From: Massilia sp. R2A-15
GTDB lineage: Bacteria > Pseudomonadota > Gammaproteobacteria > Burkholderiales > Burkholderiaceae_D
DNA: 64,000 bases
NCBI RefSeq assembly: GCF_030704305.1
Contig: NZ_CP131935.1
Span: forward strand, 1,302,001-1,366,000
Direction of reading: 5' to 3'
Shown: piece after piece, positions 42,071 through 56,000 of the stretch
How positions within the stretch are numbered: the first letter of the stretch is position 1
Layout of the letters: every line of letters starts with the position of its first letter
The notes under the pieces: generated by a model
What the model was told of the DNA's origin: nothing
Databases searched by the model: none
Seen by the model: the letters and a program-made list of their open reading frames with translations, nothing else
Program-made: the position numbers and the translations under genes

Positions 42071-42171
42071 TGTCGTTCCAGCGAAGGCTGGAACCCATGC
42101 TGAGCTCGCAGCACTCCATTGGCCGCGTAGCTGCTGACTCTGTATGGGTTCCAGCCTTCGCTGGAACGACA
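42071..42171. repeat. REP-like element, family B (facing pair)
   Basis: GTTCCAGC-GAAG-GCTGGAAC hairpins occur in TGTCGTTCC...CCCAT (42071-42098) and in inverted orientation (42144-42171), separated by about 45 bases. The unit follows rlmB by ten bases. Related hairpins with different pairing bases are in the tilS gene at 54494-54672. Confidence 0.85.
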
Positions 42172-53436: not shown

Positions 53437-54414
53437 ATGATTAAAACAACTTTCCTCAATTTTGAGCAGCCGATTGCCGAGCTCGATTCCAAGATTGAAG
53501 AACTGCGCTTCGTGCAAGACGATTCGGCCGTCGACATCTCCGAAGAGATCGACCGCCTGGCCAAGAAGAGCCAGCAGCTGACCAAGGACATCTACGCCAA
53601 GCTGACGCCATGGCAAGTGTCGCAGATCGCGCGCCACCCGCAGCGTCCGTACACGATGGACTACGTCAACGAAATCTTCACCGATTTCCATGAACTGCAT
53701 GGCGACCGTTCGTACGCGGACGACCTGTCGATCGTCGGCGGCCTGGCCCGCTTCAACGGCCAGTCGTGCATGGTCATTGGCCACCAGAAGGGTCGCGACA
53801 CCAAAGAGCGCGCGATGCGCAACTTCGGCATGCCGAAGCCGGAAGGCTACCGCAAGGCGATGCGCCTGATGAAGCTGGCCGAGAAATTCGGCTTGCCGAT
53901 CTTCACCTTCGTTGACACCCCGGGGGCGTTCCCTGGCATCGACGCCGAAGAGCGCGGCCAGTCCGAAGCGATCGGCCACAACCTGTACGTGATGGCCGAA
54001 CTGAAAGTGCCGCTGATCGCCACCATCATCGGCGAAGGCGGCTCCGGCGGCGCGCTGGCGATCGCGGTCGGCGACGCGGTGCTGATGCTGCAATATTCGA
54101 CCTACTCGGTGATTTCGCCGGAAGGCTGCGCCTCGATCCTGTGGAAGTCCGCCGAGCGCGCGTCCGACGCCGCCGACGCACTTGGCTTGACCGCGCACCG
54201 CCTGAAGGCGATGGGCCTGATCGACAAGATCATCAACGAACCGCTGGGCGGCGCCCACCGCGATCCGAAGCAGATGGGCGTCATGCTCAAGCGCGCGCTG
54301 GCCGATTCGCTGCGCCAGTTCCAGGGCATGAAGACTAAGGACTTGCTGGAAGCGCGTCATCAGAAGCTGATGAGCTACGGTAAATTCAAAGAAACCATGC
54401 CGGCAGAAGAGTGA
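53437..54414 (+). CDS. accA: Acetyl-CoA carboxylase carboxyltransferase subunit alpha
   Basis: The 325-residue protein starts at ATG 53437 after GGAGG. Features are [19 protein letters not shown] at the N-terminus, the oxyanion and CoA-binding [16 protein letters not shown], and [15 protein letters not shown]. With AccD it transfers carboxyl from biotin to acetyl-CoA, giving malonyl-CoA for fatty acid synthesis. accD is not in the window. Its stop overlaps the tilS GTG. Confidence 0.97.
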
Positions 54415-56000
54415 GCCGGCAGCAAGCCGGGTGTCTCCCGGACACGTTCGCGCGGGCGCTCGACGCCCTGCGCGGGCAAACTTCCCCCCATGACGTCGTT
54501 CCTGCGAAGGCAGGAACCCATGCTAAGTCCGCGGACCCCCAGCTCGTCGTTCCTGCGCAGGCAGGAACCCATGCCGAGTCCGCGGCCCCCCAGCTCGTCG
54601 TTCCTGCGCAGGCAGGAACCCATGCTGAGTCTGAACATAGTCAGCATGGGTTCCTGCCTGCGCAGGAACGACATGCAATAGCTATCGCCCTCAGTGGCGG
54701 CCTGGACTCTTCGGCGCTGCTGCACCTCGCGCACGCCTACGCGCGCGAGCATGGCCTGGCGCTGTTCGCCTTCCACGTCCACCACGGCCTGAGCCCCAAC
54801 GCTGACGCCTGGCTGGCGCATTGCCGCGACAGCTGCGCCGCGCTCGGCGTAACCTTCGACGAACGCCACGTCACGCTCACCAAAGGCAAGACCGGCGTGG
54901 AAGCCGCGGCACGCAAGCTGCGCTACGCCGCGCTCGGCGCCATGTGCGCGCAGCACGGCGTGCGCCTCATGCTGACCGCGCACCACCTCGACGACCAGGC
55001 CGAAACCGTGCTGCTGCAATTGCTGCGCGGTTCCGGAACGGCCGGCCTGTCCGGCATGGACGCGGCCAACAGCGCGCCCGAACTGCTCGGCAATCCCGAT
55101 TTGGTGATGGCGCGGCCGTTGCTGCCGGTGTCGCGCGAGGCGCTCGAGGCGTACGTGAAAGCGTACGACATCGCCTATATCGACGACGAATCGAACACCG
55201 ACCCGCGCTACGCCCGCAACGCCCTGCGACTGCAGGTGATGCCTGCGCTGGCGCAGGCGTTCCCCGGCTTCCAGGAACGCTTCGCGCGTAGCGCCGCGCA
55301 CGCCCAGTCGGCGCAGCGCATGCTGACCGAACTGGCGGCGCAGGACTTGGCCGGCTGCCTCATCGATGACACCATCGACGTCGCCAAGCTGCGCGCCATG
55401 AGCATCGACCGCGTCCAGAACTTGCTGCGCCACTGGTTCGCCACGCGCGCGCTGCGCATGCCGTCGACCGCCTGGCTGGCCGAGATGGTGACCCAGTTGG
55501 TGGAAGCGCGGCCGGATGCTCAACTGCTCGTCACGCACCCCGACTGCCACATCCGCCGCCATCGTGACCGCCTGCACATCACCCCAAAGCTCGAAGACTT
55601 GGCCGGCATGCGCGACCCGGACGACGAAGGCGTCATCGTCCGCCATGCCCAGGCGTTCAAATGGCAAGGTGAAAGCGAAATCGCGTTTCCAGATTACGGC
55701 GGCACGCTGTATTTCGACGCGGCGGAGCAGGGCATCGACTCCGCCTGGCTGCGCGCGCAAGCGCTGCAGATCGACTTCCGCAAGGGCGGCGAAAAGCTCA
55801 AGCTGGCCGCCAACCGTCCCACGCGCAGCCTGAAGTATCACTACCAGGCCTGCGACGTCCCTGCGTGGGAGCGCACGCGCCTGCCGATCGTCAGCGCCGG
55901 CAAGGACCTGCTGTTCGCCGCCGGCATCGGCATGGATTGCCACCATCTCGGGAGCGGTCCCGGCATCGCTTTGCGCTGGAAAAGCGACCTCTCCAGCTAA
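54411..56000 (+). CDS. tilS: tRNA(Ile)-lysidine synthase with in-frame repeat insertion
   Basis: The 529-residue enzyme starts at GTG 54411 (GTGA overlap with accA). The catalytic P-loop is [16 protein letters not shown], with SGGLDS at 95-100, unusually far from the start: residues about 28-88 are encoded by REP-like repeats (54494-54672). Those give [24 protein letters not shown] twice and a reversed unit. The rest is normal: [44 protein letters not shown] and a C-terminal TilS domain. It makes lysidine at C34 of tRNA-Ile(CAU). TilS is usually essential, so the insertion is probably tolerated. Confidence 0.93.
54494..54672. repeat. REP-like element, family B (three direct 51-bp units plus one inverted) inside tilS
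   Basis: Hairpins GTTCCTGC-GAAG-GCAGGAAC (54494-54523) and GTTCCTGC-GCAG-GCAGGAAC (54546-54574, 54597-54625) recur with a 51-base period, and an inverted copy occupies 54644-54672. Because 51 is a multiple of three, the tilS frame is kept. The units have no cas genes nearby and are not CRISPR. Confidence 0.92.

Follow-up and report, generated by a model that had tools for sequence, protein, structure and literature searches.

Can a dispersed palindromic repeat become part of the protein made by a gene that bacteria can hardly lose? The question is raised by tilS, the tRNA-Ile lysidine synthetase gene of Massilia sp. R2A-15, in which repetitive extragenic palindromic (REP) elements lie between the start codon and the catalytic P-loop. 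The locus was analysed in a window of 64,000 nucleotides (positions 1,302,001-1,366,000 of contig NZ_CP131935.1), and coordinates are window positions unless another locus or contig is named. In one lineage related to Massilia, a cluster of CGTC-type REPs very probably inserted into the first codons of tilS. It would now be read as a disordered linker of ~62 residues that connects, in a functional TilS, the N-terminal helix with the PP-loop ATPase domain.

An in-frame repeat array in tilS

The tilS open reading frame (ORF; 54411..56000, + strand) starts with GTG, encodes 529 residues and matches TilS models in Pfam and NCBIfam as well as the structure 1ni5. A first-pass annotation, made from the letters alone, had described in its 5' part three 51-bp units in direct orientation and a fourth, inverted one. 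This is confirmed by the copy coordinates (54485-54535, 54536-54586 and 54587-54637, the second and third copies being 86% and 82% identical to the first) and by Tandem Repeats Finder, which returned a period of 51 with 2.7 copies and 94% matches. The first REP unit (54494..54520, +) consists of a CGTC tag, an 8-bp stem, a GAAG loop and a CCA tail; the second (54545..54571, +) and third (54596..54622, +) follow at steps of 51 bp, and the fourth (54647..54673) is inverted, on the - strand. The REP core matched four times without mismatch in the array. With up to three mismatches it matched 10 times in the whole window, compared to 0.23 expected from shuffled sequences, four of these matches being the tilS sites on the opposite strand and two a pair near 42 kb. 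The last part of the array is a REP dimer (54597..54672, +) with two arms of 37 nt (54597-54633 and 54636-54672), 95% complementary and 2 nt apart, predicted to form a long hairpin in the mRNA. Folding of 54480-54690 gave -121.9 kcal/mol, compared to a mean of -67.9 for shuffled sequences (z -12.9). The four hairpins named in the annotation are better described as two short hairpins and one of 37 bp, in which unit 3 pairs with the inverted unit.

All four units lie inside the open TilS frame, which the 51-bp period preserves, and the ~60 extra residues announced between the TilS start and the P-loop (SGGLDS, residues 95-100; 54693..54710, +) were recovered by comparison with relatives. Relative to two genomes without the insert, G001 (locus L002) and G003, the net gain is 62 codons (186 bp), approximately 54489-54674 on the + strand with edges uncertain by a few bases, or residues ~27-88; between the shared flanking motifs there are five residues in these relatives and 67 in the window TilS. 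The alignment of tilS from relatives, which the annotation had proposed as a check, also showed that residues 1-26, 5' of the insert (54411..54488, +), form an N-terminal helix whose sequence is present in close relatives lacking the insert, G001 and G003 among them. This segment is therefore conserved protein rather than leader. The distance from this helix to the first strand is 9-33 residues in 42 aligned relatives and 71 in the window TilS, so that the insert occupies a stretch of TilS that is variable in length. The repeats are thus in frame, flanked by conserved protein on both sides and matched by empty sites in relatives, in agreement with the proposed REP insertion, and we infer from the DNA that the insert is translated as part of TilS.

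The repeats are CGTC-type REPs

Taken together, 107 REP sites in the loci sampled from this genome give a consensus with a (T/C)GTC tag, an 8-bp stem GTTCCTGC/GCAGGAAC, largely set by the search pattern, a GNAG loop and a CCA tail. The tag begins with T (60 sites) or C (42), followed by G (105), T (105) and C (107), and the tail reads C (107), C (85, with T in 21) and A (107). The published CGTC superfamily has an unpaired CGTC or TGTC tag at one end, a stem of 8-9 bp, a loop of 4-5 nt and a CCA-like tail (Di Nocera 2013, PMC3733652). The unpaired tag, the stem/loop/tail form, the dispersed high copy number and the frequent inverted dimers were all found here. The first two base pairs of the stem are said to be A-T "almost invariably" (PMC3733652). 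This trait is only half present, the second pair being T-A and the first, in the pattern used for the search of this genome, G-C; some relatives have forms that begin the stem with A. By their sequence, the tilS repeats are REPs of this superfamily.

Intragenic REPs, also in tRNA-modification genes, are already known (PMC3733652). In-frame clusters of Thauera and Rickettsia conorii encode 43 to 82 residues, and RNA-modification genes, that of tRNA pseudouridine synthase B for example, are among the intragenic targets (PMC3733652). The clusters of that study share with ours the CGTC tag, the 8-bp stem, the 4-nt loop, the CCA tail and the in-frame setting; the window cluster differs in being a 51-bp direct array and in having a counterpart at the same site in a second genus. 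The parallel drawn earlier with Rickettsia palindromic elements (RPE) proved close in kind, since RPE-4 and RPE-6 are CGTC repeats, many of them in R. conorii coding regions (PMC3733652), although they belong to another bacterial class and the tilS cluster is the sole sampled one of its genome shown inside a conserved protein. No REP in tilS was found in the open-licence literature, and tilS is not named in the excerpted main text of PMC3733652, whose list of target genes is a supplement. The locus adds a clean case, outside the Rickettsia group, of a gene indispensable to most bacteria in which a mobile palindromic repeat has apparently been made into protein. Rfam gave weak matches to the repeats, none of which reached the gathering score.

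A REPIN is a unit of two inverted REPs separated by a short spacer, and the inverted pair at 54597-54672 resembles it in structure. REPs of the GTAG type are linked to REP-associated tyrosine transposases (RAYTs; PMC3733652), unlike the CGTC-type tag found here, and no close REP match lies within 1.5 kb of the two transposase-like Y1_Tnp ORFs detected in the genome (L141 and L142; G000:C1:4060168 and 4219615). Membership in a REPIN-RAYT system was rejected on these grounds.

A second genus with an array in the TilS linker

The first 227 TilS residues were searched against 392 genomes of the family, 379 of which gave a match. One genome of another genus, G148 (locus L249), aligned through the insert. 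Its TilS has 532 residues and all three Pfam TilS domains, and at L249 1473-1650 the same linker holds an in-frame array of eight units, 21 bp apart and beginning CCGTCATT, namely seven half-REPs followed by one full REP at the end. The element is read there as SFPRKREPMLS, whereas the window tilS reads its REP in another frame. As both frame and element differ, the two arrays represent independent events, and there is no selection for one peptide. This REP-derived array, judged independent from its sequence, is new here, and it is what the present analysis adds to the published cases. The element itself presumably resembles dRS3 of Neisseria. The dRS3 repeats are CGTC-1 members, and coding arrays in tilS are not described for them in the excerpts of PMC3733652.

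Such arrays are rare in the linker, with at least two in the family sample. Among 17 loci chosen from the matches listed because they aligned far into the insert (query start <=71), only that of G148 had REPs in the linker, and none was found there in 20 family genomes selected from those with high REP-peptide candidate counts (32-191), REP numbers being checked in 8 of the 20. A gapped pattern run on the 392 genomes gave the window tilS as its sole case of a REP next to the P-loop; it missed G148 because its leucine codon was too strict, and among the seven other genomes hit, G196 and G094 matched in tilS, with no REP there.

The accA-tilS junction and the origin of the array

Upstream of tilS lies accA (acetyl-CoA carboxylase carboxyltransferase, alpha; 53437..54414, +; Pfam ACCA, 497 bits), whose stop codon overlaps the tilS start as GTGA. 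The gap was surveyed in the 141 entries for which the end of accA as well as the P-loop could be located, some genomes being present twice and the window being L001. No P-loop could be read in L136. The overlap was found in the window, in L249 and in 44 of the 141 entries altogether, which shows that overlap alone does not bring an insert. In five loci REP-like hairpins were detected 5' of the point where homology places the tilS start, beginning 52 (L089), 22 (L252), 48 (L279), 89 (L280) and 47 bp (L282) after the accA stop; all but L089 belong to genus g64 and may have inherited them from a common ancestor. Eight loose matches with poorly paired stems or no tag were set aside (L012, L027, which was the best, L090, L123, L134, L137, L138 and L140). 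The first REP stem of the tilS array in the window begins 84 bp after the accA stop, and the array of L249 ~64 bp after it.

Between co-directional genes, REPs are reported to sit close to the 3' end of the first gene (PMC3733652). We infer that the REPs landed at their usual place and that the overlap of tilS with accA made it coding. The window and G148 together suggest such a route by which an element placed just past an upstream stop may become protein.

A REP dimer would thus have landed ~80 bp past the accA stop, where some relatives also carry REPs, and would have survived there owing to a linker tolerant of length and an element that is free of stop codons in five of six frames. This last figure, obtained for the consensus REP, means that in-frame survival requires no special element. 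The direct copies may then stem from local tandem duplications in steps of 17 codons. In the genome, 22 of 35 neighbouring REP pairs are inverted and 13 share the same orientation; only two of the latter are spaced by 51 bp, both in tilS, and 4 of the remaining 11 spacings are multiples of three, about as expected by chance, which favours local tandem duplication under frame constraint. The insert may be neutral, or may mildly attenuate TilS translation, which the 37-bp hairpin, on the predicted fold, may slow.

An alternative reading holds that the array is kept for tuning, its copy number and long hairpin lowering tilS translation relative to accA or protecting the end of the accA message. 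It is in keeping with the strength of the RNA structure (z -12.9), with the recurrence of REPs in the TilS linker of G148 and, in five further loci, close to the accA stop, and with the benefit of reduced TilS activity in a Burkholderia evolution experiment (PMC10128029), a precedent that makes an adaptive role possible, if unsupported here. The two arrays differ in reading frame and their unit lengths are unrelated, linker REPs were absent from the 20 high-candidate genomes, and four of the five gap loci come from one genus; we consider tuning unlikely. A bolder form of the idea is quite doubtful, namely that the tilS start is a recurrent REP landing site past the accA stop, that arrays expand there in tandem by multiples of three, and that array length might, in the manner of short-repeat contingency loci, adjust TilS and hence AUA decoding slowly and reversibly in Massilia and its relatives. 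Whether a message is translated less when it contains REP hairpins is a question for which the locus provides a natural test.

TilS appears to be a working enzyme

Entry of the REPs into the coding sequence remains the preferred reading, and the rest of the protein agrees with it. Pfam domains PF01171 (ATP_bind_3), PF09179 (TilS) and PF11734 (TilS_C) are all above cut-off, two NCBIfam TilS domain models pass, the full-length model falls below its cut-off (298 vs 606 bits), and E. coli TilS (1ni5) is matched by both sequence and predicted fold. AlphaFold2, run with 43 sequences, gave a mean predicted local distance difference test (pLDDT) score of 84.8, with values below 50 at residues 27-83, i.e. 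over the insert, and also at 1-3 and 398-408. A helix at residues 6-23 (mean pLDDT 95 over 11-20) precedes the insert, which is flanked by this confident helix and a confident strand, and the prediction is therefore of a floppy loop added to an otherwise ordinary TilS.

The closest named relative by TilS is Massilia eurypsychrophila (L061; 88%, the record of the window itself being possibly omitted from the listing). Between the two, the rates of non-synonymous (dN) and synonymous (dS) substitution were 0.077 and 0.571 (dN/dS ~0.13), which indicates purifying selection on the gene. Compared to L062, dN was 0.153 for the window TilS and 0.156 for L061, which lacks the insert, and this similarity gives no sign of relaxed selection. 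All 66 columns invariant in 42 relatives are kept, as are 132 of 133 columns conserved at >=90%.

The genome (G000) gave a single full-length tilS match among the 24 of 252 first-look candidates that were scored; the other matches in this set were short and aligned to the REP-encoded part of the query, and a second tilS was rejected. Of 66 tRNA matches, ARAGORN covered all except four long ones (84-88 nt, Ser/Leu-like by length); no tRNA-Ile(UAU) was present among those it typed, and four typed tRNAs have a CAU anticodon. Bacteria that lack a UAU tRNA are considered unable to live without TilS (PMC10128029). These observations suggest that tilS is essential in this strain as well.

Some points weigh against a working, REP-bearing TilS. 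The selection figures include the period that preceded the insertion and thus cannot prove function after it; with a 37-bp hairpin in its coding region, the message might be translated poorly; the 20 genomes rich in candidates had no linker REPs; and the insert array was not found in a second strain among the genomes searched, so that a small chance of an assembly error is left. The large insert and strong hairpin also adjoin the active-site domain, and reduced-function tilS alleles were favoured in the Burkholderia experiment (PMC10128029), as would suit a young pseudogene, disabled or being disabled by the insert. The open frame, the 66 intact invariant columns, protein change no faster than in the insert-free L061, and one full-length copy in a genome with no UAU tRNA found make this very unlikely.

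It is equally improbable that the repeats form a non-coding leader and that TilS starts 3' of them, a possibility which the first-pass annotation had itself named as fatal to its proposal (a true start downstream of 54672). REP-like hairpins do lie 5' of the tilS start in the five related loci, and PMC3733652 cautions that many N-terminal REPs are extragenic owing to misannotation. This objection fails, because the helix kept in relatives sits 5' of the insert and there is no in-frame ATG, GTG or TTG after 54411 up to the P-loop. The only other in-frame candidates are CTG 54468, before the repeats, and CTG 54654, ATA 54678 and ATC 54684, in or after them. An assembly or sequencing artefact, suggested by the presence of the array in one genome only, is hardly credible given a single-contig genome of 5.03 Mb at 100% completeness, units that differ in sequence from each other and the comparable event in G148.

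REPs elsewhere in the genome

The exact REP form is present in 123 copies in this genome and in none of 59 relatives. When stem changes were allowed, 153 copies were counted, compared to 2, 1, 3 and 0 in four genomes of the same genus (40 genomes scanned), and 151 in G014, which belongs to another genus. Judged by these counts, the REP burst is specific to this lineage.

From the exact sites (100 of the 123) and nine loci of the tilS genome search, 82 REP clusters were sampled. In these, 86 open frames were scored by codon use, and 20 of the 86 were run against Pfam, three of which contained a domain, in each case with the REP 5' of it. By these three criteria none of the other clusters among the 82 could be placed within a conserved protein, so that tilS was the sole case. 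As codon scoring performs poorly on short sequences (-0.28 for the left part of tilS itself), this holds for recognisable cases in the sample. The statement that repeats in an essential gene are rare fits this genome, but the phenomenon is published for several genomes (PMC3733652).

Longer same-orientation REP arrays, with a spacing of 120-158 bp, occur at G000:C1:1249989-1250253 and 4193875-4194471. The pair near 42 kb in the window (42076-42166) belongs to the same REP family; its two members are inverted relative to each other and have a CCAGC/GCTGG stem, in which the stem change is paired.
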